Origin: a virus
Length of the DNA: 52,215 nt
Reading direction: 5' to 3' (one strand)
Virus record (IMG/VR): IMGVR_UViG_3300046169_000121
Coordinates: 1 to 52,215 of that record
Shown here: piece after piece, positions 1-46,738 of the stretch
How the letters are laid out: the number at the start of each line of letters is the position of its first letter
How positions within the stretch are numbered: position 1 is the stretch's first letter
The notes under the pieces: model-generated
Told to the model about the DNA's origin: nothing
Seen by the model: the letters and a program-made list of their open reading frames with translations, nothing else
Database searches by the model: none
Made by a program: the position numbers and the translations under genes

Positions 1-583
1 TAAAACACAAACTGGGGGATATATCTTTGTTTTTATTTAAACCTTCTCCGGTGAAATATATTTCTAGGCCATGTTTATTTATTGGGAGATTTATTTTACA
101 AGATTGTAAGAATAGATTTTTTAAGAATTTATTAAAAATATAATAGTACCTATGATGTGATATACCTGAAGTTGATTTGTCTACCGAGTTGCTATAATTA
201 ATTAATTTATTAATTTTTAACCCTGATATTGCGCTAGAGTAACGGTTATTTGTTATGTGGTGTCTAAACGATAGAGCTACTCCCGACAAGCCTATTGATC
301 TGTCTGTGTTCTGAGGGAGTTGTGAATTTATCAAAAGCTGTTCCCCGTAATTAAGAAAATTTGATTCTTTAAAGAAAAACTGCTTGAACCAGGAATTTAC
401 AATTGGGTACTGGTTGACTATTTTTACGTAAAACTTTATAGTTAAAAGGTTTTTTTTTGAATAATTAATCCCTAAACCATCAATGATTTGATTGTCCAGT
501 CTTAGGGAACGCGATTGTTCTATAAAGTCTAAATTATTTTTATTCTGCGCTAGAGATTGATTTATTATTTTTTCGATTTTCAT
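1..583 (-). CDS. Hypothetical protein, C-terminus cut by window edge
   Basis: An open frame runs leftward from an ATG at 583 to base 1 with no stop, giving at least 194 residues beginning MKIEKIINQ. I do not recognise the family. The visible part is mixed alpha/beta with many aromatic and Asn/Lys residues, for example LTIKFYVKIV near residue 50 and HHRYYYIF near residue 145; there is no signal peptide or clear membrane segment. Its start overlaps the end of the citryl-CoA lyase-like gene by 44 bp on the same strand, so it is probably the next gene of the same leftward operon and translationally coupled to it. The low-GC codon usage looks like that of its neighbours. Function unknown. Confidence 0.6.
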   Translation of the reverse strand, partial: MKIEKIINQSLAQNKNNLDFIEQSRSLRLDNQIIDGLGINYSKKNLLTIKFYVKIVNQYPIVNSWFKQFFFKESNFLNYGEQLLINSQLPQNTDRSIGLSGVALSFRHHITNNRYSSAISGLKINKLINYSNSVDKSTSGISHHRYYYIFNKFLKNLFLQSCKINLPINKHGLEIYFTGEGLNKNKDISPSLCF

Positions 584-1181
584 TTTTTATACTTTCAAAA
601 GAAGGGACCACTTTATTAAATTTGTTTTTTGTTTTATTGTAAAGTTTAAGCCACCCAAACATTCTTCCCATTAATGGAAGAAATAAACAATTGCTTGGAT
701 CAATTCCGCTATCAAGAGAAAGGGCTGCGATTGCGCATCCAATATTCATTGGAACAGGCATGTGTTCTTGCAATCTTAAACAGAAATTTGTGTGATTATC
801 TATCAGGTCGGCGAAATTAGTTATAAGATAAACAACTCTTGCGTCTTCTTGCTTTATTGAAGGATGTCCAAAGCCGGGAATTTTTCTTCCATCATTTTCG
901 CGCACGACATCAATCGGATTTTTATGGTAATTTTTTGATACGAACTCTGCGATTTGATTGATTGGAAGGTGTTGGTTGGTTATGCAATTTAGTCCCGCTG
1001 CAAGTGCGTGTGGCAAATCAGAGCCACAATTTGCCGCAAGAGCAACAACAGCCGAGCTGGGTGGCTCATTATCAATCGGAAACTCAATGAAAACACTTGC
1101 CAATGCATCAAACAATCTGCGCTGTTGCTTTGTGTAAGCTTGCTTGTCAATTAAATATTCTAATACTTGATCAAAAAACAT
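540..1181 (-). CDS. Citryl-CoA lyase / citrate synthase-family protein
   Basis: A 213-aa protein resembling the short citryl-CoA lyase branch of the citrate synthase fold. Seen: a PSSAVVALAA stretch and an AVAAGL-like helix (residues 41-64), a His at 71 where the family has its first active-site His, the signature PGFGHPSIKQEDAR (residues 102-115, His106 matching the conserved second His), and NIGCAIAALSLDSGIDP (146-162) followed by a GRMFGWLKL helix (172-180). The position of the catalytic Asp of true citrate synthases (NVDG) is Gly148 here; as I recall, some citryl-CoA lyase-like proteins also lack it, so condensation activity is doubtful and C-C lyase or another acyl-CoA reaction is possible. 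At 213 aa it is shorter than citrate synthase (about 400) or typical citryl-CoA lyases (about 270). It overlaps the upstream GNAT gene by 11 bp, which suggests a shared acyl-CoA-linked task. The fold call is fairly secure; the reaction is inference. Confidence 0.7.
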   Translation of the reverse strand: MFFDQVLEYLIDKQAYTKQQRRLFDALASVFIEFPIDNEPPSSAVVALAANCGSDLPHALAAGLNCITNQHLPINQIAEFVSKNYHKNPIDVVRENDGRKIPGFGHPSIKQEDARVVYLITNFADLIDNHTNFCLRLQEHMPVPMNIGCAIAALSLDSGIDPSNCLFLPLMGRMFGWLKLYNKTKNKFNKVVPSFESIKNENRKNNKSISSAE

Positions 1182-1677
1182 CTATTTTTCCTTTAACTTT
1201 AAATGAAATTAAATCTGCGTCACAGTTTAATTGTTTGGCGAGTTTTTGAGCGTTTAATAGCGAGGCTTTGTTTGTAGTGTATATTTCGAACATATAACTA
1301 TCAAAACCTCTTAATTTTAATTCTTTAGTTAAGGATAATCTTAAATCACTTCCTATTCCAACCTTTCTGAAGTCTGGGTGAACTATAGTAATAATACCAT
1401 GAGCTATTTTGCTTTTTGTATCATACATTTTATCAATTTGCGTGGAACAACAAGAAAATCCTACGCAAGTTTCATTATGAATACATGCGAGCGCTGGGTC
1501 ATCATTAAATATTGCTTGAAATACTTCATACTTATAAAAGCTTAGAACATTTTTTTCTGTATTTTTTAATGAACATAACCCATGTATTTCTTCATTGTTT
1601 GATATTGAAAGCCTAATGATTTCGAGCACATCTTCTTCATGATCATGAGATAATGGTACTATATGGGTTTTGTCCAT
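1171..1677 (-). CDS. GNAT-family N-acetyltransferase
   Basis: A 168-aa protein of typical GNAT length. The core strand and acetyl-CoA pyrophosphate-binding loop are visible as ITIVHPDFRKVGIGSDLRL (residues 96-114), with R104-x-x-G107-x-G109 fitting the family motif A, followed by a helix and the strand SYMFEIYTTNKASLLNAQKLA typical of motif B. The substrate cannot be read from sequence; protein side chains, amino sugars or small amines are all possible. Its 3' end overlaps the start of the citryl-CoA lyase-like gene by 11 bp, so the two are co-expressed. No strong ribosome-binding site precedes the ATG; 26 nt separate it from the 41-aa peptide gene upstream. Confidence 0.8.
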   Translation of the reverse strand: MDKTHIVPLSHDHEEDVLEIIRLSISNNEEIHGLCSLKNTEKNVLSFYKYEVFQAIFNDDPALACIHNETCVGFSCCSTQIDKMYDTKSKIAHGIITIVHPDFRKVGIGSDLRLSLTKELKLRGFDSYMFEIYTTNKASLLNAQKLAKQLNCDADLISFKVKGKIDVF

Positions 1678-1703: not shown

Positions 1704-1829
1704 TTATTTACTATAAAATTCATCGTCTTTATTTTTTTGAAATACAAAAACAATTGCAGATAATAATCCAAAAGCTAAAAAATCACCTGTAAAAAATTCA
1801 AAATATGAGGAGGCGAGAATTGTAATCAT
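1704..1829 (-). CDS. 41-aa single-pass membrane peptide
   Basis: A small frame reading MITILASSYFEFFTGDFLAF and on to a lysine-rich tail ending in FYSK. The first two thirds are hydrophobic and could span the membrane once; the C-terminus (QKNKDDEFYSK) is charged. Its ATG at 1829 overlaps the TGA of the deoxyribosyltransferase-like gene as ATGA, the same translational-coupling arrangement seen between many genes in this window, which is the main reason to call it real. Function unknown; a small membrane effector is possible but unsupported. Confidence 0.5.
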   Translation of the reverse strand: MITILASSYFEFFTGDFLAFGLLSAIVFVFQKNKDDEFYSK

Positions 1830-2365
1830 CTATACTCTTTTCTTAAAAGCCGCCAACGGTCTGAGTCGATAGGTTTATTTCCATCATCAATAGCATACAG
1901 CATTTGAATAATTTCGTCAACACTATTATAAATGTATTTATGAGGAAACATACCAAGCATCCATAGAGGAGTCTTTGCTTTGCCACCTTCCATACTAACG
2001 AATACAGGTTTTTTCTCGCGAACCGCTGTGACAATTTCTTCGGCACTTCCCCAACTTGCGACTTCAGGCACAAGATGTGCAATAATAAAATCACTGCGAT
2101 CTACCAAATTTAAATCGTATGCACGCACAGTTTTCATTCGCTCGGTTACTCGATCATATTGCTTGGTGCTCATCCAAGTTTCCATTTCTTGGCGACTAGC
2201 TTCGTCCTCTTCTACATCTTTAATGAAGGGTTTCTTGTATGGATCAAAACATGTAATACTTAATGGTTTAAGTTCTTCTGCTACATGATCTCTCCAATTA
2301 CGACCGCTCACATACTGCATGTGGCCCACCAAATAACATTTGGTTCTGTACAATAGATTTTTCAT
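1826..2365 (-). CDS. Nucleoside 2-deoxyribosyltransferase-like protein
   Basis: A 179-aa Rossmann-like protein. Seen: an N-terminal strand YLVGHMQY (11-18) with GRNWRD following, FDPYKKPF (40-47), a DLNLVDRSDFIIAHL strand (84-98) and ASWGSAEEIVTA (103-114). The last resembles the family signature in which a catalytic Glu lies near a small-residue turn and a Thr/Ser-rich loop precedes an E-I helix start; Glu101 or Glu110 are the candidate catalytic residues. Members of this family transfer deoxyribose between bases or hydrolyse nucleotide N-glycosidic bonds, so a role in phage nucleotide salvage or modified-base metabolism fits. It is the first gene of a leftward operon and is preceded by a sigma70-type promoter with almost no leader (2372-2400). 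Confidence 0.65.
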   Translation of the reverse strand: MKNLLYRTKCYLVGHMQYVSGRNWRDHVAEELKPLSITCFDPYKKPFIKDVEEDEASRQEMETWMSTKQYDRVTERMKTVRAYDLNLVDRSDFIIAHLVPEVASWGSAEEIVTAVREKKPVFVSMEGGKAKTPLWMLGMFPHKYIYNSVDEIIQMLYAIDDGNKPIDSDRWRLLRKEYR

Positions 2366-2403: not shown

Positions 2404-3426
2404 TTATCTCGTTGCGTGAATATGAAGCTTGGCGTCTTCTGGGAGATCTGACACAAATGAAACTTTAAAAGACGAAGTTGTTGATTCGCTAATTAGATAA
2501 GAAACGATAAAATTTTCACTTTCTAAACTTGTTGACAGTATAGGTGGTGCGATAAATGCTTCTGGATATGTTATTTCAAATGAAGACTGCCCTGATGCAA
2601 GATCCTCGACCAACGATATTGTTTTTGTTTGTCTAAAAGACGCTCCTCCTGTTGGTTTCGCGAGAGTGTGAATCTTGTACGAATCATTAGGTATATTACT
2701 TGCAAAATTAACTGTATAATTCTGATTTGTTACATTCGTAATAAGGTATGGCACAGCTGCAGATCCAGATCCCTGAAGATCCAGAGTTACAGATGGGGGA
2801 CTCTCAAAAGTTTTTGGAAAATCTATATTATACTGCGAGATTCCTGAAACTAATGAAAGTGTGAAATTGACAGACTCTTCTGGATGAGAAGATATTTTTA
2901 CAAACCCACCTGCGTCATCTGATACATATAAATTATTAAAATATCCATCTCCATTTACCGTAAGAGCTCCCGATGAAGATGTTGTGTTTATCGAAAGCGA
3001 CCCAGTGCTGTCAATATTCATGGTTTGGCCGCTAACATCTATATTGATTGAATCATTTGCTGCAAAATTAATCTTGCCCGACTCGAATTGAATATAAGTA
3101 TCTAAATCATCTTTGTGATAAATATAATCTTCCACAGTATAAGAATCCACCCCCAAGCCCCCACCAAAAGAACACTCATCAATGAAAGTTTTTGAACCCC
3201 TGATTTCTTGATCTCCACTTAATAAAACTGATGTGTCAAGTATTGATTTTTTTAAATTTTTAAATTTTATTTTTTCATTACTGATGCCTGAAGATGCAAT
3301 CATAAAAAGAACATCATCATCTTGATTGCCAATGTTTGGGTCGAATCCAGAGGGAATGAAAGACGAATCGAAGGAAGATAAGCTTGTTGCTTCATCTAAA
3401 TTTGAGATTCTATTATTTGTTGCCAT
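2404..3426 (-). CDS. Fibre/lectin-like structural protein (paralogue of next gene)
   Basis: A 340-aa protein with a phage-fibre look: an N-terminal RISNLDEATSL segment, a DDDVLFMIAS motif (residues about 36-45), an NLKKSIL segment followed by QEIRGSKTF, a beta-rich Ser/Gly centre containing GALTVNGDGYFNNLYV, and two C-terminal beta-sandwich repeats of about 70 residues each with the pattern YNIDFPKTFESPPSVTLDL ... PYLITNVTNQNYTVNF. The repeat resembles H-type lectin domains. The gene lies 1 nt downstream of its paralogue and shares its entire architecture, so the pair arose by tandem duplication. A virion-attached adhesin or decoration protein is likely; placement in the tail is inferred from context. 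Confidence 0.6.
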   Translation of the reverse strand: MATNNRISNLDEATSLSSFDSSFIPSGFDPNIGNQDDDVLFMIASSGISNEKIKFKNLKKSILDTSVLLSGDQEIRGSKTFIDECSFGGGLGVDSYTVEDYIYHKDDLDTYIQFESGKINFAANDSINIDVSGQTMNIDSTGSLSINTTSSSGALTVNGDGYFNNLYVSDDAGGFVKISSHPEESVNFTLSLVSGISQYNIDFPKTFESPPSVTLDLQGSGSAAVPYLITNVTNQNYTVNFASNIPNDSYKIHTLAKPTGGASFRQTKTISLVEDLASGQSSFEITYPEAFIAPPILSTSLESENFIVSYLISESTTSSFKVSFVSDLPEDAKLHIHATR

Positions 3427-3427
3427 T

Positions 3428-4495
3428 TTAATTTCTTTCTTGAGATAAAGTATGTATTGTATAATTTTGATCCACTTCTGATTCGAAGTGAATAGTATAT
3501 GAATTATTATTTACACTAGATATGGCATATGCAACAATGTTATTTGCACTCTCTATTGAGGCATGTACAGAAGGAGCGGATGAATATGCAAAAGGAAAGT
3601 TGATTGTGTGAGTCAAAGATTGAGAGGTTAATTGAGTGTGAAAACGTTGTATTGTTTGCGCATCAGACACACTGCTTTCGCTTGAGTCAGGAAGGATAGA
3701 GGGGCTAAATGCTGACACATGTAAAGAGTAATCATTTCCTGTAATTACTGAGTCAAATTTAATTTGAAAACTATGGGCATTAACATTCGATAATATAAAC
3801 GGTACATATGCTTGAGAATTTTCGCGAAATAAGTTTGCAGTTATAATTGGTTTATATTTAAAAGTTTTCGGGAGGTATATTGTAGAGATCGTTGTTCCTG
3901 CCTCTATTTTATGATTAAAACATACCGTTTCGTCCTCTAAGTCTTCAAGTGGTAACTTGCTATAATTACCTTTTATATTTTTTACATAAGTATTATTTAT
4001 GTATCCGTCACCATTAATATTTAATGCCCCTTTATTTGTGTTTGTATTAATATTGAGGCACCCGCTGTTTGAAAAGTATACGTTTTTATTTTGATCAGAA
4101 TAAAATGAAACTTCTTTATCTGAATTTAAAAATAATTTACCTTCTTCAAATCTTGCCGAACAAGATCCATCTGATTCATCATTAATATACTCATCAATGT
4201 ATAGATTTTCATAGGAGACTGCGTCTTGTGTTTTAAGAAAGCATAGATCCATGAAAACTTTTGATCCAGATATCTCTTGCTCTCCTTCAGTTAATAATGA
4301 ATTATCTATATTTGATTTTTTTAAATTTTCAAAAGATATTTTTTGATTAGACGCATTCTCTATTGCAGTCAAAAATAAAATATCGTCATGATCTGAGCCA
4401 AGTGTGGAATTATTAGACGCAGATACCGCCTCTTTAATGCAGTCAGAGAATAATCCCGAAGTTTCTTGCAGTTCTGATATTTTTTGATTCGGCAT
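3428..4495 (-). CDS. Fibre/lectin-like structural protein
   Basis: A 355-aa protein from the ATG at 4495 (an upstream TTG at 4504 is also in frame but less likely). Same layout as the 340-aa gene just downstream: QKISELQETSGL, HDDILFLTA, NLKKSNID, QEISGSKVFMD, GALNINGDGYINNTYV, then two H-lectin-like beta repeats (IYLPKTFKYKPIITANL and INFPFAYSSAPSVHAS). The shared NINGDGYINN segment is typical of triple-helical fibre stalk or trimerisation parts. A GTGTAATA motif sits 13 nt upstream (4516-4509), one half of a divergent pair, so the gene should be expressed late with the other structural genes. Confidence 0.6.
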   Translation of the reverse strand: MPNQKISELQETSGLFSDCIKEAVSASNNSTLGSDHDDILFLTAIENASNQKISFENLKKSNIDNSLLTEGEQEISGSKVFMDLCFLKTQDAVSYENLYIDEYINDESDGSCSARFEEGKLFLNSDKEVSFYSDQNKNVYFSNSGCLNINTNTNKGALNINGDGYINNTYVKNIKGNYSKLPLEDLEDETVCFNHKIEAGTTISTIYLPKTFKYKPIITANLFRENSQAYVPFILSNVNAHSFQIKFDSVITGNDYSLHVSAFSPSILPDSSESSVSDAQTIQRFHTQLTSQSLTHTINFPFAYSSAPSVHASIESANNIVAYAISSVNNNSYTIHFESEVDQNYTIHTLSQERN

Positions 4496-4508
4496 AACGA
4501 GCAATGTT

Positions 4509-8952: not shown

Positions 8953-9412
8953 TTGCTTCAATAGGTCTTAAGAAAATAGTTGTAAATTGTACAACATCAA
9001 ACAATCCGTGTGGACGCGGATCCGATTCAACATGAAACATTCTGCCGTCAAGCTCAATCCGTTTTGCTTCTTTTATATAGTCGTAATCTTCAACTTTTAA
9101 TTTGATGCGTACTGTACTGCTTGGATCTGGTCGATTTACTTTGACTTGGGCATCTGTTTCGCCAAAATATTCCAAACTACGATCGGTGTCGTATCTAACA
9201 CGCGCCTTGAAAACTTTGCGAACAGGCACGTTTTGTACGCTGGGAGTAGTTTTTCCAGAATTACCGTATAGATAATTATAAGACGGATCTGTACTAATAA
9301 TTACTTTTTGTGCTTCTTTATATACAATAATCTCTCTTCCGAATGTATCGTGAAGATCAAGTAAATTCGCCGCAATGCTAGCTCGTTCAGAAGGTGATAA
9401 AAACTCTGCCAT
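8933..9412 (-). CDS. Head-tail connector-type protein
   Basis: A 159-aa protein starting MAEFLSPSERASIAANL. The segment LHDTFGREIIVYKEAQKVII followed by STDPSYNYLYG is a pattern I associate with a conserved protein of marine siphophages encoded just before the neck and tube genes. The C-terminal half is beta-rich (VRIKLKVEDYDYI, MFHVESDPRPHGLFDVVQFTTIFL). First gene of the leftward connector/tube operon, six bases downstream of a GTGTAAAA late-type motif, so it is predicted to be translated from a nearly leaderless transcript. Confidence 0.55.
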   Translation of the reverse strand: MAEFLSPSERASIAANLLDLHDTFGREIIVYKEAQKVIISTDPSYNYLYGNSGKTTPSVQNVPVRKVFKARVRYDTDRSLEYFGETDAQVKVNRPDPSSTVRIKLKVEDYDYIKEAKRIELDGRMFHVESDPRPHGLFDVVQFTTIFLRPIEANGQSTQ

Positions 9413-9418
9413 AAATGT

Positions 9419-9426
9419 TTTTACAC
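9419..9426 (-). promoter_or_regulatory. Putative late promoter motif GTGTAAAA (leftward)
   Basis: TTTAGTGTAAAA on the minus strand, six bases before the ATG at 9412. It matches seven of eight positions of the GTGTAATA motif and is the leftward half of a divergent pair. Confidence 0.5.
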
Positions 9427-9441
9427 TAAAGAAAATTTTTT

Positions 9442-9449
9442 GTGTACTT
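9442..9449 (+). promoter_or_regulatory. Putative late promoter motif GTGTACTT (rightward)
   Basis: GTGTACTT, 21 nt before the ATG at 9471 and 15 nt from the divergent leftward copy, the same separation as in the pair at 4509-4539. This is the weakest match of the set. An AAGG ribosome-binding site (ATAAGGTTTA) lies directly before the ATG. Confidence 0.4.
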
Positions 9450-9470
9450 CATTTCAAGGTATAAGGTTTA

Positions 9471-9758
9471 ATGAACGCAGAAGACATTTTTAAAAAATGT
9501 TGTCACAGGAATACGGTTTCCCTTTTTAAGGGTTTCCTCGTAATGCTTGAGGACTTACATAAAGAGCATGAGATTAATTTCAATAAGTTAAGAGATAATC
9601 TTCCAGAGGGTTGTGTCCCTATTGTTGATCAAGCCGACTACTTCGACGAAGAAAAATTACAACATCTTCGCAAACGTACTCTCGATATTGGTAACGAAAC
9701 AATTAGAAATATCATGGGAGATTTAGATAATTATACTATAGGCTTTACATTTAAATAA
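9471..9758 (+). CDS. Small hypothetical protein upstream of tail chaperone genes
   Basis: A 95-aa mostly helical protein (MNAEDIFKKCCHRNTVSLFK ...), with an FLVMLEDLHKEHEINFNKLRDNL helix and a DNYTIGFTF end. No family recognised. It heads the long rightward tail operon, with an AAGG ribosome-binding site and a late-type motif upstream, and is followed after 2 nt by the 275-aa gene. A tail assembly role is inferred from position only. Confidence 0.55.
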   Translation: MNAEDIFKKCCHRNTVSLFKGFLVMLEDLHKEHEINFNKLRDNLPEGCVPIVDQADYFDEEKLQHLRKRTLDIGNETIRNIMGDLDNYTIGFTFK

Positions 9759-9760
9759 TC

Positions 9761-10588
9761 ATGTCAGAATCAGCAACACAACAAAAAACGCTTCCTACAA
9801 TGGATGATACTCGAAAGAAATTACGTGAAATTTATAGTTTTACGTTTGAAAAAGAGGAGAAAGTAAAACGTACTGAAACAAGTAGCGTAAAGAATCCCGA
9901 AACAGGAGAACAAGAAGAAGTGTCCGTAACCAAAGAGGTTACAGATAAGGTTCCCTATCGCATTGTAATGAAGCAACCCACGCGCCGTCAGATTGAAGAG
10001 GCTGAGCTTGAGTTTAGTGTCGAGATGAGTAATTGTATTAAAAAAGGCGTGCTCACCAAAGCGATGCTCGCCAAAAAGTATAGTGACACAGGTGGACTGC
10101 TTGCCGAAGAAGATGCAAAAGCATTAACAAGTATGTATGTTAAGTACGGCGAACTATCTCAAGAAAGTGAAAAGCTTGGAATCAAATCATCCACTTTAAG
10201 TGATGAAGATACTCAACGCATGAAAGATATTGCGGGAGAAATTGCTACTCTGCGAAAAGACATTGTTAATGTTGAAACATCATATTCTAATTTATTCAAT
10301 CATACTGCCGATGTGAGAGCAGAAAATAAAGTTATACAATGGTATATATTGAATCTTACATTTTTACAAAAATCAGATGAAGATAACATGACTGCATTGT
10401 TTGCAGGAAATGACTTTGAACAAAAATTACAAACCTACTATGAAATGGAAGAAGAAGGAGATGAATTGTATGACATTGTGGGAGGAAAGATCGCGGCGCT
10501 TTATAGCTTTTGGTATTACAGCAGTGGTGCAGTGGGCAAAGCTGATTTCGAAAAGCTTGACAACGACATCGAAGAAGGAAATATATAA
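9761..10588 (+). CDS. Putative tail assembly chaperone (first of two)
   Basis: A 275-aa acidic protein. The N-terminal part has a charged linker (NPETGEQEEVSVTKEVTDK, about residues 46-64) before KVPYRIVMKQPTRRQIEEAELEFSVEMS; the remainder is helical, with a likely coiled coil around SQESEKLGIKSSTL to VNVETSYSNLF. Position two genes before the tape measure is where siphophages encode the G and GT-type tail chaperones. It ends with TAA at 10586-10588, and the following gene is in exactly the same frame one codon after the stop. Confidence 0.5.
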   Translation: MSESATQQKTLPTMDDTRKKLREIYSFTFEKEEKVKRTETSSVKNPETGEQEEVSVTKEVTDKVPYRIVMKQPTRRQIEEAELEFSVEMSNCIKKGVLTKAMLAKKYSDTGGLLAEEDAKALTSMYVKYGELSQESEKLGIKSSTLSDEDTQRMKDIAGEIATLRKDIVNVETSYSNLFNHTADVRAENKVIQWYILNLTFLQKSDEDNMTALFAGNDFEQKLQTYYEMEEEGDELYDIVGGKIAALYSFWYYSSGAVGKADFEKLDNDIEEGNI

Positions 10589-11617: not shown

Positions 11618-14600
11618 ATGGCTATTGATCTTGATGTACATGGTAATACAAAACCGCTTGAAGCGGCGGTACAGGCGGCTGTAAACAGAATTCGTCGTCA
11701 ACCAATAAAAATTACTGTTGATGACAAGGGCGCCACCCAGCCATTGGGCAACATGAAGCGTGGTGCTGATGAGTTTACCAAATCGATGGAAGCGGCGAAT
11801 GCTCGTATTCTTGCGTTCGGTGCGAGTATGGCAATCATAAATGGTGTGGCTAATGCATTCAAGGGTATGGTCAAAAACCTTGTTGAGGTTGAGAAAGCTA
11901 TGGCTGACGTTAATGTGGTCATGGGTTTGAGCGCTCAAAACTTGGAAAAATTTAGTGATGGACTTTTTAAAGTGGCAAAAGAAACTGGTGCGGCATTCAG
12001 GGTTGCTGCAGATGCCGCTACAGAATATGCTCGTCAGGGCTTGGGTGTTGAAGAATCTCTAAAAAGAACGAGAGACGCTTTGGTTCTTACTCGCTTGACT
12101 GGCATGGACTCTGCCGAAGCAGTAAAATCCTTGACTGCCGCGATGAACACATACGGCACACAAATCAAAGATACCACGCAATTGGTTAGTAAGTTTGCTG
12201 CTGTTGATGTTAAGTTTGCGGTTAGCGCCCAAGATTTTGCGGACGCTATTTCTCGTACTGGTCAATCTGCTCAAAGCGCTGGGGTGAGCATTGACGAGCT
12301 TGTGGGTATTGTAACTGCTGCTCAGCAAAAAACTGCTCGTGGTGGTGCGGTTATTGGTAATGCGTTGAAAACAATTTTCACAAAAACAGGAAAAACCGAT
12401 ACTCTCAATCAACTTGAAAATTTAGGAATCGCAGTTCGCGATCTTGAGGGAAATACAATTGGTGCACAACGCATACTGAATGATCTCGCCAATACGTTTG
12501 ATACTCTTAGTGCTGCGCAAAAAGCTCAGATTACTCAAACAATGGGTGGTTTGTTTCATATCAATATTTTAAAAGCTGTTTTGAGTGATGCCGCAAAGCA
12601 AAATGGTATCATGGCTGAAGCTACTAAAATATCTGCTGGCGCTACAGACGAAGCTATACAAAAAAATGAAGAGTTGCGCAAAACAATGTCTGCGGTTGCC
12701 ACAGAAACAGGCCTCGCAATCAAACAAGTTAGTACTCAAATAGGTGAAATTGCACTTGCTCCAGGAATGGAAAAGATTCTCAACTCTGTTAAAAGTCTGG
12801 CCGAAGGATTGAGTGGAGTGTTGGGAGATGGAGAAAGTACTGGAAGTAGTTTTGCTACTGGCCTTCTTAAAGGTATTGGTAATGTTATTACTGGGCCAGG
12901 ACTTGTTGTTCTCGCGGGTGTATTTTTCAAATTATTTGGTCAAGCGTTAAAGTTTACAAAAGAAAGTTTAACTTCGTTGGTCGGCGTAACAACCGAAAAA
13001 CAAAAACAAAAAGCCATACAAACAAGCTTGGTTGCACTGTTTGGTCAAAACGCAGCGCTCAACAAAGAGATGTTGCGTACTGATATTGGTCGCACCGAAA
13101 AAGAAAAAATCATACTCGGACTGCTCAAGGCGCAAGTTCTTGAAGCTAAATCTTTGAGCACATTGACTGCTGGCATGGCTGGTACATTATATCGAAAAGG
13201 GTATGGCGCAAATTTAACACCTGTTGGTAAAAAAGCAAGTGGACACATTCCTAATTATGCAAACCCAGAACGCGCACAAGCTGCGCAGGGTGGATATGCT
13301 GCTGGAAATATTAGAAGCATGAACATGCCTGGCGAAGGCTCGGTAATATACAACAGTGCAGAAAAAGTCAAGAATTTTAAGGGCATGAGCCAACCTGCAA
13401 TCATGCCTCCTTATTCAAGCAAGGCTGGAAAAAACTATCAACAAGCATTTGGTAGTATACATGGATTTGATCCATATGCTGCGGGAGGATATATACCCAA
13501 CTTTGCGAAAACTGCGGCTCAATATTTAGAGAGTGCAAGAAGTGCAAAAACAACTGCTAATTTAACAAAAATTGCTAGGGGCGAGGAAATAGGAGGGAAA
13601 ACATTCTCTCTCGAACAACAAGCTGATGCAGCTGCAGCTTTACTAGAAAGATCTGCAGCAATAAAAACCACAGCAAACTCAAGTCAACTAAAAGACACCG
13701 GAGCTATTTCTTTGGCTGCAATGCTTGTTCCTAAAGAGGGTTACAAATTTAAAGCTGGCGATAAACCGCCTTACGCTAGCTATGGAACTGGAAAAGGTAA
13801 AATGACTTGGCCTGTTTACACTTTGAGATCACAGATTCAAAAACCAATGGATCTTACTGATAAAGTAAAGAAAAAATTTGAGTCGGTTGGATCTAAATAC
13901 TCAACTGAAGTCTCAAGGTCTGTGGGAGGAGGAAATGTCACTGCTAATAAATTTTGGAAAGAAATAGAAAATGATAGAGCGGGCGGAGGTAAAGGGGCCT
14001 GGAAGGCTGCAGTTGGAGCTATTTTTGAGGCATCTCTAAATGCTGCAATAGGTTATAAAGCGGCTAAAGGACACCCAGAACAAGGAGATTTTGATGTTAG
14101 GGGTGGTGAAAATCTCAATAAAGTTCGAGAACTTTTTGATCTGCCCCCGGGCATTCCTGTGGCTGATTATAAAAGCAGTGCAGCTAGCAAAGGTAACAGA
14201 AAGTCTTTTAGAGATAAAGTTTTAAAAGAAGGCGCGTTCAAGGCCGCTCAAAAGAAAAACAAAACAAGAGCCTACGGCCACATCCCCAACTTCGCCGATC
14301 CATTATCTGATGCAATAGGCCGAGAAAAAGCGGCTGGCGTTCCAGTTTCACAAATTCGTGTTGGCTCACACGGCGCACTCATGGGCAAGGGAAACCCCCT
14401 CGGCCTCGGCGTAACCAATACACACGATGAGCCAAATGGTTTGCGTGATGTGTTTGGTGCGAATGGATTCGTGCCGAATTATAAAAAAGGATTCATTCGA
14501 AAAGGATACAACAAGTTAAATAAAAGATTTTCAAAAACATCTGCAGGAAAAGTGCTAGACTCTAGCGCTGGACAAATGGGTGTGGCGATTGGACTTCCAA

Positions 14601-17600
14601 TGGCTGCTGCTGCAACTGATGGCGCAGCATTATCTGGAGCTTTACAAGGGGCAGGAACAGGTGCAATGATTGGCAGTATGTTTGGTCCACTGGGTACGGC
14701 TGTAGGTGCTGCAGGAGGAGCGTTACTCGGATTTATTGGCGGATTAAACGATGCAGAAAAAGCGACTAAAGAAAAAGCAAAGCAAGACCGCGAGGTTGCC
14801 GCTCAGGCTTTCTCTCAAACTACGCAAGAAATTTTTGGTGGAGATTATAGTCCATCTCAAAAATTGAACGGCAAAACGTTGTTGGCAACCTTCGAAAGTG
14901 TGCCATTACATATGGGTATTGCAATGCAGGAAATGAGAGAGCAGCTGAGAGACTTTAAGGGTACAGGTCGAGAAAAGTTAGCTGAACAAGAAAGGTTAAA
15001 ATCTGAACTTCGTTATAAAAGCAGCGAAGATTTAGACCGCGAAAAAAAGTCTATTCTCGCTTCGTTGATGAAGGGTAGGGAAAATGAGGTTTTTAGGGGT
15101 AGAGAAAAATTAGAGAAAATAGGATTAAAGCAAGAAGCGGCTACAGGTTTAGAAATTATTGAAGCTATAAAAGTTGCAGATCCTAAGCAGATTCAAAAAT
15201 TTTTCAATGATATGAAGATGAATCTACAAGAAAGAGCAGGATCTGAAAGAGATCTAACTCGAGCGGTCATACTTCAGCTGAATACACAAAAAGCAATTGT
15301 TGATGCTCAGCATGCATCAAAATTGCGACAATTAGAAATTAATACAAAATATTCTTCAATCGTTGATTCTTTAACTCTTCAAGAGCGAGTAATTGGTTCA
15401 TCAATAACAGAACAACAAAAAGCGAATTTTACTTATACCAAAGCAATGCAGAATGCTGCTAGAAAATATGAGGTAGGAGAAGAGGCTTCTGGATTTAAAT
15501 TTAGAGAATCTATGCTTGATTTTGCTAAAGGTGGAAATGTTATAGCTCAACTTAAAACTGTTCTGGCTTCTGGTAAATCAATTGATTCTGATAAGGTGAA
15601 CTTAAACCAAGAGCTTTCAAATCTAAGCAGTCAAGAATTGAGTCATATGATGGCAAAGCTAGATCTTACTGATGAGGAAAGACTTTCACTTGAACAAATT
15701 GTTGAAGCAAGAATTCGAAATTTAGAACTACTGAAAAAAGAAAAAGAAATCGCCGAACAGAGAGCGAAAACAGAAAAGTATATAAATGATACAGTTGGAA
15801 AACGAAATGATATTATATCTAAGGAAAAAAATAATTTAAAATCTAGATCTAGTGCCCTATCACACACTCAGACGATGCGCGGTTTCGGTGTGGAACTTTC
15901 TAGCGCAAGAAGGGCAGCTGATTTTGGAGGAGGGTATAAAACACATCGGCAGAAAGCAGAGTTCGATTTAAATGAATCATCAATAAATACTCAGCTAAAA
16001 ATTACAGAGATAAAAGAAAATAATCTGCTTGAAATACAAAGAAAGAAACTTGCTCTTAAGAAAGAAGAGCTTGCGCAAGAGGAGATGCTTGATTTTTACA
16101 AAAAGAAAGAAGTTGAAGGTCATACTCTAAGTACAGAAGAGGAAACTTACTATAAAAGTTTAGAAATGGGTGAAAAGGATAGATTACGTACAATAAAAAT
16201 AATCAATCAAGAAATCGATCAGCAAGAAGAAAAAAGTAAAGGTCTAATAGAAAATGCTGAAAGATTATTAGAAGTGGAAAAACAAATATCAAAAGAAAAT
16301 TTAAGCAGAGCTCAAAGATTAGAAGCGTTAGAATTTGCGAAAACTCAAGCTCAGTATCAAGATCAAATTTCTTCAGATGAATTCGAAATAGAGCAAGGGC
16401 AGTTAAGGCTTTCTAGGGGGCCTGGTTATATATCAGATTTTCAAAAAAGAAGAAATGATTTATCTAATAGAGGTGCTAGAGAAAAAATAGGTTTTGCGAG
16501 TATGGAAGAAGGTGCAAGATTACAAATATCTACATTAAAAGAATCGCATGATTACGAAAAATTAGCGTCCGAACAATCTAGGTATGAAGAATTATATTCT
16601 AAGCTTGGCAAAGAATATGTTTCTCCAAAAGAAATGAATGAACTTGGTGGCTTACAACAAACTTTAAAAAATAGAGAAGAAACTTTAAGTAAAATCGAAG
16701 AACAATCTCAAATGATCAACTCTGCTAAAGATAGCGCAATAGAAAAAACTAAAACCTTATTGAATTTAGAAAAACAAATCTTGGAGCAAGAAATCGCTCA
16801 TAAAACTGGCCCAGGTGCATTTAGTAATGGAATGACAGACTCTTTTGAAATGATGCGCGATCAGGTTTCAATGATGGACTACGAACTTGGCAAAAGAATA
16901 CCAACCGCTTTCGCCGACGGACTTAGTGGAGCACTAATCGGCGCAATCAATGGAACAAAAAGCCTAAAAGAAGGATTGATGGATGCGGCAGTGAGCTTTT
17001 TAAGCATGATGCAACAAGCCATGATGCAAAAGTTGGTTTATCAATCAATGGGTGCAATGGGATTTTCGAAGGGTGGAAATGTTCGCAAATATTCAAAAGG
17101 TGGCGGAGTGCCTGCTATGGTAAGCAACGGTGAATATGTGATGAGTCGCGATGCAGTAAATAAATATGGCGGATCATTCATGCATGGAATAAATGCTGGT
17201 GGACAAATACCTGGATTTAGCAAAGGTGGGATGACCGGTACTATTGTCGACGACAGCGGCATAGGTGGCGCATTGGTGATGAAAGAAAAAAGATTTCAAG
17301 AAGCCGTAGAAAATCATTTATTATCAACAGGAAAAATAAAAAGAGAGGCTGCGCCGGGAGGTCCTGCAGCGCAAGGCTCTGCATTAGCATCTAATTTTGG
17401 GGGAGGACGAGGATTTGATTCTGGTAGATTATACCAAAGAAAAGCAATGAGCAGTTCTTTTTACGCTCAATCTGGTAATGTGGGACTTGGTGAAGACACA
17501 AGTGCAATGCAAGCAATACTTTCAGAAGAAGAGCGTGTTCGTCAAGAAATCAAGGCGAAACGAGAAGCGGCAAAAGCAAAGCGCAGACAGATACTGGGAA

Positions 17601-18229
17601 TGGTTGCAAGTACTGTTCTTATGGCGGGATTATCTAAAGGTTTTGGGTCTGGGTCTAAGTCTGGGTCTAAAATTGGTGGATTTGGTGAGGATTTGTCTAG
17701 AGATGCAATGCTATCTCAACCTTCAACAAATTTTAATTTTAACCCAGACCCTGTAAGTAGCTCGATGGCTATGAGGCTCGGCAACCCATTTGGTTTAAGT
17801 TATGGAGGCTCAATTCGCAAATACGCCAGCGGTGGACACATCGCAGGAAAATCTGGCATCGACCAAATTCCAGCCATGCTCAGCGAAGGAGAATATGTTA
17901 TTCGCGCAAGCAGTGCTCGCCAAATTGGCAAACCAATGCTTGATCAAATAAATGCAGGAAAATTTAATGAAGGAGGATCTGTTAGTGAGATCGCAGGCTC
18001 TAGTGAAACTGGGTCGACCGGCGGAAACACAAACAACATTAGTATTTCTGTTAACATGGAACGTGGTTCATCAAACAAGCAAGAACAGCAAAGTGAATCA
18101 ACTGGCAAAAATCCTTCAGATAAATCGAAGGAAGAACAAGGTAGCGCTAAGCTTGCGGAGCGTATAAAACAGCAAGTAGTTTCTGTAATTATTGAAGAGC
18201 AACGTCCAGGAGGGTTATTAAGTGATTAA
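11618..18229 (+). CDS. Tape measure protein with internal nuclease-like domain
   Basis: A 2203-aa TP901-family tape measure that sets tail length and is ejected with DNA. Residues about 50-350 are the conserved domain (LVEVEKAMADVNVVMGLSAQ, KETGAAFRVAADAATEYARQ, RGGAVIGNALKTIFTKTGK). Hydrophobic segments lie near 430-445 and 1010-1045. Motifs GHIPNYA (542-548), GYIPNFA (624-630), GHIPNFA (887-893) and GFVPNY (950-955) bracket modules. Between the second and third, E804, D824/D826 and D850-Y-K852 with the right spacing look like a PD-(D/E)XK nuclease. Residues about 1060-1790 are predicted coiled coil. The C-terminal part repeats a VPAMVSNGEYVMSRDAV-type module (about 1830 and 2085). It is preceded by a good SD and followed after 2 nt by a tube-like gene. 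Confidence 0.92.
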   Translation: MAIDLDVHGNTKPLEAAVQAAVNRIRRQPIKITVDDKGATQPLGNMKRGADEFTKSMEAANARILAFGASMAIINGVANAFKGMVKNLVEVEKAMADVNVVMGLSAQNLEKFSDGLFKVAKETGAAFRVAADAATEYARQGLGVEESLKRTRDALVLTRLTGMDSAEAVKSLTAAMNTYGTQIKDTTQLVSKFAAVDVKFAVSAQDFADAISRTGQSAQSAGVSIDELVGIVTAAQQKTARGGAVIGNALKTIFTKTGKTDTLNQLENLGIAVRDLEGNTIGAQRILNDLANTFDTLSAAQKAQITQTMGGLFHINILKAVLSDAAKQNGIMAEATKISAGATDEAIQKNEELRKTMSAVATETGLAIKQVSTQIGEIALAPGMEKILNSVKSLAEGLSGVLGDGESTGSSFATGLLKGIGNVITGPGLVVLAGVFFKLFGQALKFTKESLTSLVGVTTEKQKQKAIQTSLVALFGQNAALNKEMLRTDIGRTEKEKIILGLLKAQVLEAKSLSTLTAGMAGTLYRKGYGANLTPVGKKASGHIPNYANPERAQAAQGGYAAGNIRSMNMPGEGSVIYNSAEKVKNFKGMSQPAIMPPYSSKAGKNYQQAFGSIHGFDPYAAGGYIPNFAKTAAQYLESARSAKTTANLTKIARGEEIGGKTFSLEQQADAAAALLERSAAIKTTANSSQLKDTGAISLAAMLVPKEGYKFKAGDKPPYASYGTGKGKMTWPVYTLRSQIQKPMDLTDKVKKKFESVGSKYSTEVSRSVGGGNVTANKFWKEIENDRAGGGKGAWKAAVGAIFEASLNAAIGYKAAKGHPEQGDFDVRGGENLNKVRELFDLPPGIPVADYKSSAASKGNRKSFRDKVLKEGAFKAAQKKNKTRAYGHIPNFADPLSDAIGREKAAGVPVSQIRVGSHGALMGKGNPLGLGVTNTHDEPNGLRDVFGANGFVPNYKKGFIRKGYNKLNKRFSKTSAGKVLDSSAGQMGVAIGLPMAAAATDGAALSGALQGAGTGAMIGSMFGPLGTAVGAAGGALLGFIGGLNDAEKATKEKAKQDREVAAQAFSQTTQEIFGGDYSPSQKLNGKTLLATFESVPLHMGIAMQEMREQLRDFKGTGREKLAEQERLKSELRYKSSEDLDREKKSILASLMKGRENEVFRGREKLEKIGLKQEAATGLEIIEAIKVADPKQIQKFFNDMKMNLQERAGSERDLTRAVILQLNTQKAIVDAQHASKLRQLEINTKYSSIVDSLTLQERVIGSSITEQQKANFTYTKAMQNAARKYEVGEEASGFKFRESMLDFAKGGNVIAQLKTVLASGKSIDSDKVNLNQELSNLSSQELSHMMAKLDLTDEERLSLEQIVEARIRNLELLKKEKEIAEQRAKTEKYINDTVGKRNDIISKEKNNLKSRSSALSHTQTMRGFGVELSSARRAADFGGGYKTHRQKAEFDLNESSINTQLKITEIKENNLLEIQRKKLALKKEELAQEEMLDFYKKKEVEGHTLSTEEETYYKSLEMGEKDRLRTIKIINQEIDQQEEKSKGLIENAERLLEVEKQISKENLSRAQRLEALEFAKTQAQYQDQISSDEFEIEQGQLRLSRGPGYISDFQKRRNDLSNRGAREKIGFASMEEGARLQISTLKESHDYEKLASEQSRYEELYSKLGKEYVSPKEMNELGGLQQTLKNREETLSKIEEQSQMINSAKDSAIEKTKTLLNLEKQILEQEIAHKTGPGAFSNGMTDSFEMMRDQVSMMDYELGKRIPTAFADGLSGALIGAINGTKSLKEGLMDAAVSFLSMMQQAMMQKLVYQSMGAMGFSKGGNVRKYSKGGGVPAMVSNGEYVMSRDAVNKYGGSFMHGINAGGQIPGFSKGGMTGTIVDDSGIGGALVMKEKRFQEAVENHLLSTGKIKREAAPGGPAAQGSALASNFGGGRGFDSGRLYQRKAMSSSFYAQSGNVGLGEDTSAMQAILSEEERVRQEIKAKREAAKAKRRQILGMVASTVLMAGLSKGFGSGSKSGSKIGGFGEDLSRDAMLSQPSTNFNFNPDPVSSSMAMRLGNPFGLSYGGSIRKYASGGHIAGKSGIDQIPAMLSEGEYVIRASSARQIGKPMLDQINAGKFNEGGSVSEIAGSSETGSTGGNTNNISISVNMERGSSNKQEQQSESTGKNPSDKSKEEQGSAKLAERIKQQVVSVIIEEQRPGGLLSD

Positions 18230-37345: not shown

Positions 37346-38504
37346 TATTATTGTCGTTATAAAGTTTTAGATTGATTGCGTCTTCCCAGAACTCATCGCA
37401 GTCGATAACGGTATTGTGTTCTCCTTCAATACCATTTCTCCATGCCGCTTTGCTGGCATAGATTTTGTTATTGGATACGATGACTTGTGCGCTTTTATAA
37501 CGAGTATTATTGCATATTTTATGATGATTGTCAATATCATTTTTTGTTTTTTGTTCAAAAAAGTATACATCCCAATCGAAAAACTTTAATCTTAAATCAT
37601 TTATTATGTCATTATCTTTGCATATTAATTTTAATTTAATACCTAACTTTTTACATGCTTTAAAAAATGTTTCATTATCATCTGGCTGTACAAAATAATT
37701 GATTTGATTTATATTATTTTTGATTGCCTGTAGATAGTTGATTTGCATTGGTTGATCAAGAAATAGGTTCACCTTGCGGGTGTATGCCCATTGAGCTATA
37801 TTCTGTTCGTCAAAATGTTCGTGACCAAGTATGTTTGCAGGTTGACCTGCTGCGAAGCTTTTACCTAACACACAATTTGGGACAACTGCGAGCGAGCTTG
37901 CGTGATATGCAGCGCCAATGTGAAATGTTTCAATATTGTTTAAATTGTTTTTTATGTTTAATAACCTCAATACAGATTTAGCGACTTGCTCAGGCTTGAT
38001 TTCGTTGATTGTTTTTGGGTATTCACTGTCTGAGAATGAAGCTTTTCTTTTTGTCCTGTCTGGTTCGAGTAAAATTTGACTTGCTTTATCTCCCCAGTAC
38101 GGGCCACAACATTCTTTGTATAATGTAGAATATAAATTCACTATCTTTTTATCAAAGCCGCTTGCAACATGAGAGCTGAACGAATCAGTCCCGAGGTGAA
38201 GCATTGAGTTCTTAATGATATACGCGGCTTGACGAATAGTTGTTTGCCCTTGGTGGTGAACGCAGTGGTTTATTTTAGGTTCTTCTTTATTACCTATTTG
38301 TACAACTTTAATATTTTCCTTGTCTAGGTAGGGGGTGAGTAGATTTATTACATCATTGTAGTAATCGTAAGTTTTTGATTGTATTCGGTTACTTGTATGT
38401 AATGTGATATACTTGTTAGGTGCAATTGGAAAATAAGAGGTTTCGATTGAGGGCTTTCCTATTTTAACACCGCAGGAAAGTGCATATTGTTCGATTAAGT
38501 GCAT
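37335..38504 (-). CDS. GT9-type glycosyltransferase, C-terminal half, with extra domain
   Basis: A 389-aa protein beginning MHLIEQYALSCGVKIGKPS, which is where the second Rossmann half of heptosyltransferase-type (GT9) enzymes starts. ITLHTSNRIQSKTY and IIKNSMLHLGTDSFSSHVAS match the donor-binding half. The C-terminal 200 residues (from about 190) are a separate region containing NCVLGKSFAAGQPANILGHE and a Rossmann-like LICKDNDIINDL segment, unassigned. The N-terminal GT9 half is in the upstream gene, in the -1 frame, overlapping by 10 nt, so either the two halves associate or a frameshift joins them. Confidence 0.65.
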   Translation of the reverse strand: MHLIEQYALSCGVKIGKPSIETSYFPIAPNKYITLHTSNRIQSKTYDYYNDVINLLTPYLDKENIKVVQIGNKEEPKINHCVHHQGQTTIRQAAYIIKNSMLHLGTDSFSSHVASGFDKKIVNLYSTLYKECCGPYWGDKASQILLEPDRTKRKASFSDSEYPKTINEIKPEQVAKSVLRLLNIKNNLNNIETFHIGAAYHASSLAVVPNCVLGKSFAAGQPANILGHEHFDEQNIAQWAYTRKVNLFLDQPMQINYLQAIKNNINQINYFVQPDDNETFFKACKKLGIKLKLICKDNDIINDLRLKFFDWDVYFFEQKTKNDIDNHHKICNNTRYKSAQVIVSNNKIYASKAAWRNGIEGEHNTVIDCDEFWEDAINLKLYNDNNNGT

Positions 38505-40402
38505 AATTCAAATTGTATTTTATCTTTACCGTTATGTGGGAAGTTGACGATTCGTTGAGTGCCTAAAAATGGAATAAATGCAATCTCAAAATATCCTTCA
38601 TGATCTCCTTGGCCTTCCATGAGAGGTAGGTTTGCTAAAGAGTCGTGATAAGGTATACATTTGTGAATATGAGGATTTCCATCTAACACTTCGAAATATT
38701 GAGGGTGAGTTGCAAAATAAATATTTAAGTCTGGGTATTGTTTTTTTATATTTGGTAACAGTGAGGTTGTGAGGTAAATATCTCCAATTCTTTCAGGCAT
38801 TACAATTAACAATCTTTCTCCTTTATCGTCTTCGTCTAATAGGTCACTTAAATCTACCTTTTTGTTTTCACGGTTTTCTTTTTCTGCAACACTTCTGAAA
38901 TATTCTAATACGTCTTCTCTTTTTAAGTCATCATTTAACCTTTTCATCCAATGCTTGTGCCCTTCATCTGTTGGATATGTCTCTACTTTGAGTATGTTTT
39001 TATATAAATCACTTAACCATTCTGAGTCATTATCTGTTTGTATTGGTTCATAATTTGGATCTCTTTCCTCTGTCTCAAAATCAAAATTCCAATCAACTGG
39101 CTGCATTTCATCCAAAACCTTTTCGAGCTGCTTACCTATAACTTCTACACTGTAATTATCTATAACGAATTGTCTCGCCTGCTTACCCATTTTTTCACGC
39201 TTTTTAGGTTTCATTTCATAAACTTTTCGAAGTTGGTAAGCTATACTTTTGGGGTCGGTACTTGCTTTGATGAATTGAGTTCCTGGTTCACGGTATTCTG
39301 TCCAACTAAGAGGTAAACTTTCAGCCTCAGGTACGCAACAATCCTCTCCGCAACTATAATTTGTTACAAGAGTAACTAGCTCTGTTAACTTAGCTTCTTG
39401 AATGGGAATTTCTTGGCCACCACTTGTAAATGGGTGACAATAAACATTCATTAAATTATAAATTTCATTGAGCTGATCTTCATCTACTCCAGCTCTAGTA
39501 CTTGTTGTTACTTGAGTTTTTTCTCCACCACAAAATTTACAATCCTGATTTTCTCCCGAAAAATTTTTTACTTCATACTCTTTGCATTCTTTACAATAAT
39601 AAGTTGTTAGAATTTTTGTTGGATCTATATCTTTTTCTTTCAGTAGTCGTGGTATGTCCCAACCTTCACCCCAGTGAGTATGCAACAGTAATTTTGCATT
39701 GCATGTTGGGTTTTGTTGACAAAAGATTTTGAATCCTTCGAGAAGATTCGGGACACTTTTGCGAAGTTGATTGCGAAAAACAAAACCAATGATGAAATCA
39801 TCCGAGTTGACATTATGTCTCTGACGAAGCTCCCAACGTTTTTCATCTTTAAGTTTATAAAAATTAGATGTGTCTAATGCGCCACGAAGAGTCTTTACGT
39901 GATCTTGACCGATTTCATTCAAAGATCTTTGAGCGAAACTTGCCCATGTAAAATAGTTTTTAATTTTTGGGGCAGCTTTAACTGCGTCAGGTAAGATCGG
40001 AAGACTGTCTAACGTTGTCCAAATCATTGAATTTATCTTATTCCACCAAGTTTTTTCAGTGAAACCATTGAAAGCCCAAATATCTTCAATTCCAATGTAA
40101 ACGTCCGGCTTTTCACGTTCGATGATTTTATCTATCATCTCAGCTCCGTATCCAGCATTTCTAGCTAATTGAGGATCCTGTTGTAGTTTTTTTATAGTTC
40201 TGGAGTCGGAAGGTAGGGAACCTTCAGCTTTCCATGGTAGGTTTTTCAAACTTGGATCACCCCACCTTATTCCGTTTGAGAATTCTACTAAATCATACTT
40301 ACCAGTTTTCTGAAGATGTATCAGTATATTTTTGGTACATTTACCAAATCCAGTAAAAGCTTTACAGTGATTGCTATGTATTAAAACCTTCTTTTTTTTC
40401 AT
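38495..40402 (-). CDS. GT4 glycosyltransferase - DUF4214 - GT9 N-terminal half chimera
   Basis: A 635-aa multidomain protein. Residues 1-445 form a GT-B glycosyltransferase of the GT4 type (KVLIHSNHCKAFTGFGKCTK, then DDFIIGFVFRNQLRKSVPNL and EDQLNEIYNLMNVYCHPFTS, GGQEIPIQEA as donor site). A zinc ribbon (CKEC ... CKFC, about 267-293) is inserted in the second half. Residues about 460-515 (WLSDLYKNILKVETYPTDEG, HWMKRL) look like DUF4214. Residues 527-635 (ERLLIVMPERIGDIYLTTSL) are the N-terminal half of a GT9 enzyme whose remainder is the next gene. Likely acts on phage- or host-surface glycans. Its ATG uses the last base of the SSB-like gene's stop. Confidence 0.75.
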   Translation of the reverse strand: MKKKKVLIHSNHCKAFTGFGKCTKNILIHLQKTGKYDLVEFSNGIRWGDPSLKNLPWKAEGSLPSDSRTIKKLQQDPQLARNAGYGAEMIDKIIEREKPDVYIGIEDIWAFNGFTEKTWWNKINSMIWTTLDSLPILPDAVKAAPKIKNYFTWASFAQRSLNEIGQDHVKTLRGALDTSNFYKLKDEKRWELRQRHNVNSDDFIIGFVFRNQLRKSVPNLLEGFKIFCQQNPTCNAKLLLHTHWGEGWDIPRLLKEKDIDPTKILTTYYCKECKEYEVKNFSGENQDCKFCGGEKTQVTTSTRAGVDEDQLNEIYNLMNVYCHPFTSGGQEIPIQEAKLTELVTLVTNYSCGEDCCVPEAESLPLSWTEYREPGTQFIKASTDPKSIAYQLRKVYEMKPKKREKMGKQARQFVIDNYSVEVIGKQLEKVLDEMQPVDWNFDFETEERDPNYEPIQTDNDSEWLSDLYKNILKVETYPTDEGHKHWMKRLNDDLKREDVLEYFRSVAEKENRENKKVDLSDLLDEDDKGERLLIVMPERIGDIYLTTSLLPNIKKQYPDLNIYFATHPQYFEVLDGNPHIHKCIPYHDSLANLPLMEGQGDHEGYFEIAFIPFLGTQRIVNFPHNGKDKIQFELCT

Positions 40403-46354: not shown

Positions 46355-46737
46355 ACAAATATATAGCACTAGGAAATTTAACCCGCGACCCAAAGTTTCG
46401 CGAAATCAAAGGAGATAATAAGGTTTGTGATTTTGCAATCGCAATCAACAACAAGGTAAACAATAGTGTTTTCTATATTGATATAGAAACATGGAATAGT
46501 GTTGCTGAAAACTGTAATCGCTTTCTAAGTAAAGGTAGGAAAGTGTTGGTCGAAGGTCGACTTACTTCCAGCAGCTGGAAAACAAAAGATGGAGAGAATC
46601 GTACGCGCACATATTGCGTTGCAGAGAAAGTAACATTCCTCGATAAGTCCGAAGATGCCTCCAACGGAGATCAATCAAGAAATAAAGAGCCCCGCGCAGA
46701 AGAAGTGGACGACGAATTTGCAGATATCCCATTTTGA
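46351..46737 (+). CDS. ssb: Single-stranded DNA-binding protein (OB-fold SSB)
   Basis: A 128-aa classical SSB from the ATG at 46351, which overlaps the sigma stop as ATGA; longer upstream starts are not needed. NKYIALGNLTRDPKFREIKG, VCDFAIAINNK and NRFLSKGRKVLVEGRLTSSS are the OB-fold core; the tail ends in DDEFADIPF, the partner-recruiting acidic tip. Coats ssDNA during phage replication and repair. Confidence 0.9.
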   Translation: MNKYIALGNLTRDPKFREIKGDNKVCDFAIAINNKVNNSVFYIDIETWNSVAENCNRFLSKGRKVLVEGRLTSSSWKTKDGENRTRTYCVAEKVTFLDKSEDASNGDQSRNKEPRAEEVDDEFADIPF

Positions 46738-46738
46738 T

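Follow-up and report, generated by a model that had tools for sequence, protein, structure and literature searches.

A citrate-synthase-fold protein coupled to a GNAT-family acetyltransferase in the variable cargo of large contractile-tailed phages

The viral DNA analyzed here, called the window below, is the whole of IMG/VR record IMGVR_UViG_3300046169_000121, a stretch of 52,215 bases from a contractile-tailed phage. At its left end lie three overlapping genes on one strand, which encode a GNAT-family N-acetyltransferase, a short protein with a citrate synthase fold whose catalytic aspartate is replaced by glycine, and a third protein cut off by the window edge (Table 1). These coupled genes may form a modular auxiliary pathway of acyl-coenzyme A (CoA) chemistry and tailoring, carried as cargo by large contractile-tailed phages, a reading to which we give a probability of roughly 0.45. 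A sequence-only reading of the same DNA had described the first two genes as a phage citryl-CoA lyase-like enzyme coupled to an acetyltransferase; its observation was confirmed, and its interpretation is partly supported.

Identity of the citrate-synthase-fold protein

The open reading frame at 540-1181 on the minus strand belongs to the citrate synthase superfamily, with a PF00285 match at E 2.6e-8 and 33.7 bits (cut-off 27), and it contains the motif GFGHPSIKQEDAR. The top sequence match among solved structures is the citryl-CoA lyase 6hxp, at E 3.7e-5 with the single sequence and E 1.8e-7 with a profile of the phage family. An AlphaFold2 model of the protein (pLDDT 78) matched the same structure in Foldseek (E 1.6e-6, TMq 0.78), and the best 50 matches of the model were all citrate synthases, methylcitrate synthases, citryl-CoA lyases, or ATP-citrate lyases. 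The fold proposed in the sequence-only reading therefore stands, structure prediction having pointed to no other.

The wording "citryl-CoA lyase" did not hold up, both because of the residue changes described below and because the protein reached 46.4 bits against an NCBIfam citryl-CoA lyase cut-off of 212. In a maximum-likelihood tree with cellular homologues, ten phage sequences formed one clade with full support, outside both cellular groups; the stem branch of this clade measures 6.4 changes per column, and a branch of such length makes its placement unreliable. No relative of the protein was found among GenBank phages, and a first genome scan gave no close cellular relative. A second, broader scan returned matches of about 24-34% identity only, and a profile search of 398 genomes of Pseudomonadota (the phylum of Luminiphilus, G011) returned weak matches only. 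The literature searched on phage citryl-CoA lyases contained no report of one.

Among the closest known systems is the citryl-CoA lyase of Hydrogenobacter thermophilus (6hxp), along with the lyase module of ATP-citrate lyase. Like these, the phage protein is a short version of the fold without the N-terminal half, with histidine at both His positions, a GxGH motif, and two arginines. It differs from them in the replacement of Asp by Gly, in the probable replacement of the His of the DH(G) motif by Phe, in a further shortening of the N-terminus, in its coupling to a GNAT gene, and in its very long branch.

Active-site residues in phage and cellular homologues

Residues were compared by aligning 14 phage sequences with 46 homologues of cellular origin in three alignment modes. 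The active site of citrate synthase consists, in pig numbering, of the triad His274, His320, and Asp375 together with His238. Of the phage residues, His71 and His106 correspond to His274 and His320 on the CoA side, and these two histidines, along with Arg115 and Arg173, are invariant in all 14 phage sequences. The position of the catalytic aspartate is Gly148 in the window protein and glycine in all 14 phage sequences, whichever alignment is used, as the sequence-only reading had noted for this phage. The equivalent of His238 is phenylalanine in all 14 in two of the three modes; since this short segment is unaligned in the third, replacement of the substrate histidine is probable rather than settled. 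The phage protein thus departs from the citrate synthase pattern at the Asp375 position and, in two modes, at the His238 position, and of the citryl-CoA lyase pattern (the NxDG aspartate plus two histidines) it retains both histidines with Gly148 in place of the aspartate.

Loss of the aspartate is no special clue in itself, because 39 of the 46 sampled cellular homologues also lack it, carrying S, A, T, or N at this position; most of the 39 were gathered by their GHP pattern, so the proportion is not a census. Many of them are annotated as citryl-CoA lyases, and in all 39 the first histidine and the aspartate are lost together. The seven cellular citrate synthases and true lyases sampled have His, His, and Asp all present. 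The suggestion in the sequence-only reading that glycine could be tolerated here in a lyase is consequently not favored, as the solved lyase and the sampled lyases of the His/Asp type keep the aspartate. The Asp-lacking cellular "citryl-CoA lyases," which come from Pseudomonadota and Actinomycetota (Roseomonas, Sulfitobacter, Bosea, and Burkholderia glumae among them), resemble the phage family in having a replaced aspartate and a GHP motif. They have, however, no histidine at the His71 position and mostly keep the DHG/EHG histidine, whereas the phage family shows the reverse. Judged from these alignments, the phage combination of two CoA-side histidines with a lost aspartate is unseen among the cellular sequences sampled.

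A separate observation concerns the bacterial proteins themselves. Those annotated or grouped as citryl-CoA lyase in L045, L047, L050, L051, L054, and most of L055-L134 lack the first histidine and the catalytic aspartate, and their residues suggest that such proteins may catalyze another reaction and be misnamed.

Coupling to a GNAT gene

Scans of IMG/VR recovered the citrate-synthase-fold gene first on 13 and then on 18 viral contigs. On every one of the 18, a GNAT gene lies upstream and overlaps its start by 8-17 bp (11 bp in the window, at 1171-1181), and the gene downstream abuts or overlaps as well; several contigs are near copies of others, so the independent cases number fewer than 18. 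The assignment to GNAT follows from the PF00583 profile, which the relatives' proteins pass too; for the copy in L005, no relative was found among GenBank phages. The citrate-synthase-fold gene is under strong purifying selection, with a ratio of nonsynonymous to synonymous substitution (dN/dS) of 0.06-0.11; the constraint is a little weaker for the GNAT gene (0.11-0.19) and the third gene (0.15), and these values argue that all three genes are maintained. With the overlap kept on all 18 contigs and dN/dS of 0.06-0.11, the pairing is not a matter of chance, and the acetyltransferase partner, the overlap, and the phage context described in the sequence-only reading are all borne out; the pair is also conserved in relatives, a check that this reading had proposed. 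That reading had taken 540-1677 as the unit; the coupling it described is real, and what it left out is the third coupled gene at 2-583 on the minus strand, whose family directly follows the citrate-synthase-fold gene in the window and on 14 of the 18 contigs.

A third, exchangeable gene

Because the window copy is truncated, the protein that was folded is its complete relative L006:6599-7402, to which the window product is 87% identical over 194 amino acids. The AlphaFold2 model of this protein (pLDDT 84, pTM 0.85) has ten strands interleaved with paired helices, and its top four Foldseek matches among solved structures, as well as eight of the best ten, are prenyltransferases of the ABBA (alpha-alpha-beta-beta) type: PirF (probability 0.99), DciF, DMATS1, CymD, KgpF, and FAMD1. 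The model points to an ABBA-prenyltransferase-like predicted fold. With these enzymes the third protein would share a ten-stranded alpha-alpha-beta-beta barrel, as predicted by the model, and conserved K-x-Y residues in strands; it differs from them in having no detectable sequence similarity and a TM-score of about 0.5, in its location in a phage, and in partner genes unlike those of cyanobactin clusters.

Other searches returned no counterpart. The protein has no sequence match in Pfam, PHROG, NCBIfam, or the PDB, and hmmsearch of the PDB gave no sequence support for the prenyltransferase assignment. The viral structure library contained no ABBA match, no relative was found among GenBank phages, and no phage ABBA prenyltransferase was reported in the literature searched. 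The protein was also not found in the 398 Pseudomonadota genomes or in nine genomes with lyase homologues, which are weak negatives, the searches having had no positive control.

The third gene occurs as two alleles of about 25% identity; where one replaces the other, in the window and L004, the citrate-synthase-fold genes in front of them share 94% identity over 202 amino acids. The left flank of these two contigs is nearly unchanged (99% identity for a nucleoside 2-deoxyribosyltransferase-like gene, hereafter NDRT-like, and 98% for a lectin-domain gene), which places the boundary of the swap close to where the citrate-synthase-fold gene ends. Such swapping of alleles behind near-identical genes is what exchangeable tailoring enzymes would be expected to show. 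The interval that separates the third gene from the one after it (L006 7403-7624 and equivalents) contains a basic open reading frame of about 55 amino acids, conserved in 6 of 6 relatives inspected; considered as a possible precursor-peptide gene and judged by eye, it was rejected as an obvious precursor.

The variable cargo slot and its phage lineage

The genes described above occupy a variable slot, which was surveyed with the NDRT-like gene as marker; of 123 loci of the lineage, the best 80 were kept. Across these 80 the NDRT-like gene is 79-100% identical and forms the conserved left border of the slot, and it is not necessarily part of the pathway. A small conserved gene, seen downstream in many loci, bounds it on the other side. 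In the window and L154-L232, the slot is empty or contains a GMP reductase-like gene, this gene with a GNAT gene, a gene of about 174 amino acids, or the full set with or without the GMP reductase-like gene, which directly precedes the GNAT gene in many relatives and is absent from the window. The other four of the 18 contigs (L194, L197, L202, and L206) have a Cupin_8-type (JmjC-like) gene before the GMP reductase gene, the type having been tested in L194 and L202. In place of the prenyltransferase-like gene, the citrate-synthase-fold gene is followed there by a gene of 156-173 amino acids with no convincing Pfam match and then by a gene of which one copy has a weak UPF0489 match.

Among GenBank phages, the tail sheath matched mostly Pseudomonas phages of about 276-282 kb, and contigs related to the window reach 211 kb, so that the label "jumbo phage" can fairly be drawn; the lineage is presumably marine-type, judging by the IMG/VR sample numbers. 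Beyond the NDRT-like gene, the two adjoining genes with lectin-like segments probably encode tail fiber or adhesin proteins. The window also contains two glycosyltransferase-like genes, at 38495-40402 and 46655-47794, both of which match PHROG 2170.

Table 1. Genes of the coupled set, their neighbors in the window, and alternative slot contents in related loci (positions without a locus name refer to the window).
Feature	Position	Strand	Remarks
Third gene, first 194 codons	2..583	-	Cut at window edge; allele "type 2"; 44-bp overlap with citrate-synthase-fold gene
Citrate synthase/citryl-CoA lyase-fold protein	540..1181	-	213 amino acids; ATG start; PF00285 and fold
GNAT-family N-acetyltransferase	1171..1677	-	168 amino acids; first of coupled set; PF00583 27.2 bits (cut-off 20.7)
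NDRT-like gene	1826..2365	-	PF15891 29.3 bits, just below cut-off 30
Two adjoining genes with H-type lectin-like C-terminal segments	2404-3426, 3428-4504		Pfam cut-off passed by second only
Tape-measure protein	11618-18229
Tail sheath	49612-52197
GMP reductase-like gene	L008:4516-5514 and equivalents		Near but under NCBIfam cut-off
174-amino-acid gene	L163:5669-6193		No Pfam match; replaces the set; also in about seven other loci (similar N-termini)
Alternative set, Cupin_8-type gene	L194:5655-6626
Alternative set, downstream pair	L194:8665-9141, 9128-9784

A possible tailoring pathway and its alternatives

From the coupled genes we infer a pathway in which the citrate-synthase-fold protein would be a divergent enzyme of CoA thioesters. 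Its substrate would resemble a carboxylate or an oxo acid and would not be citryl-CoA, and the enzyme would form or break a C-C or thioester bond by means of His71/His106 and Arg115/Arg173. The GNAT would act next, placing an acyl group onto an amine of the same substrate, and a third, exchangeable enzyme, usually the ABBA-fold prenyltransferase-like protein and in some relatives the products of other genes, would complete a product for use in infection, which might be a small molecule, a peptide, or a nucleotide in modified form. Gene order, overlaps, the folds of the first two proteins, the residue changes, purifying selection, and co-occurrence are what the data show; catalysis by the altered site, the sequence of steps, a common substrate, prenyl transfer, and the purpose belong to the proposal. 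The invariance of the four active-site residues in 14 of 14 phage sequences argues against a dead relic. A more specific version, in which the cassette of GNAT, repurposed citrate-synthase-fold enzyme, and exchangeable ABBA-fold prenyltransferase or other genes makes a prenylated or acylated molecule or peptide during infection, is conceivable and on balance doubtful; no report of such phage chemistry was found in the literature searched.

Several points weigh against the proposed pathway. The general base of the citrate-synthase-fold protein is gone and the substrate histidine probably gone as well, so that the protein might be non-catalytic. The prenyltransferase assignment is structural and comes from the L006 relative rather than from the window copy. 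Its best Foldseek E-value was 3.7e-3, with no match at E <= 0.001 and TMq of 0.47-0.50; hmmscan gave no match of the protein to the prenyltransferase families PF11468 and PF11991, and hhalign comparison with two prenyltransferase families gave a probability below 1%, hardly above reversed controls. These modest E-values, a TM-score near 0.5, and the near-null profile comparison make the assignment a fold-level lead and not a family membership. Lastly, genes that travel together need not have a common substrate.

One alternative amounts to the same pathway with a specific target: the set and the neighboring nucleotide-metabolism genes would jointly act on a nucleobase or a nucleotide, and the resulting modified phage DNA or nucleotides would escape host nucleases. 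The slot adjoins the NDRT-like gene, many relatives have a GMP reductase gene right before the GNAT gene, and relatives have genes for dCMP deaminase and a dUTPase-like protein within a few kb downstream. However, many members of the lineage keep their nucleotide genes without the cassette, jumbo phages generally carry such genes, and the annotated proteins include no recognized DNA-modification gene, so we consider this target improbable.

Alternatively, the citrate-synthase-fold protein could be a non-catalytic sensor or scaffold for CoA or carboxylates, or could interfere with the dimeric citrate synthase of the host. This would accord with the altered Asp and His positions and with the small size of the phage proteins (202-218 amino acids, compared with about 245-279 for the annotated cellular citryl-CoA lyases sampled). 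It would also accord with work on human ACLY, where an allosteric role has been argued for the citrate synthase homology domain from an Asp1026 mutant in that domain (PMC10115795), an indication that such a domain can be non-catalytic. We nevertheless hold it unlikely, since two histidines and two arginines of the active site are invariant under strong purifying selection and a stand-alone inhibitor would not need the strict overlap with GNAT. The possibility that the protein is a true citrate synthase or citryl-CoA lyase, diverting the carbon flow of the host in the manner of a classical auxiliary metabolic gene, has the fold and the closest solved structure in its favor and is very improbable, given the missing aspartate, the probably missing His238 equivalent, scores far under the family cut-offs, and a position outside the cellular citrate synthase/lyase clade.

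Significance

The citrate synthase fold and the GNAT are of known kinds; within the reach of the searches made here, the novelty lies in the combination of residues, in how strictly the genes are coupled, and in their occurrence in phages. The phage pattern is useful for asking what a citrate synthase fold does when it has lost its general base. If the coupled proteins do act together, they would represent phage-encoded, multi-step tailoring with CoA thioesters, and perhaps with isoprenoids, as opposed to a single host-derived metabolic gene. Were the third protein a prenyltransferase, as is at present a prediction, this would be a phage-encoded tailoring pathway of real interest.
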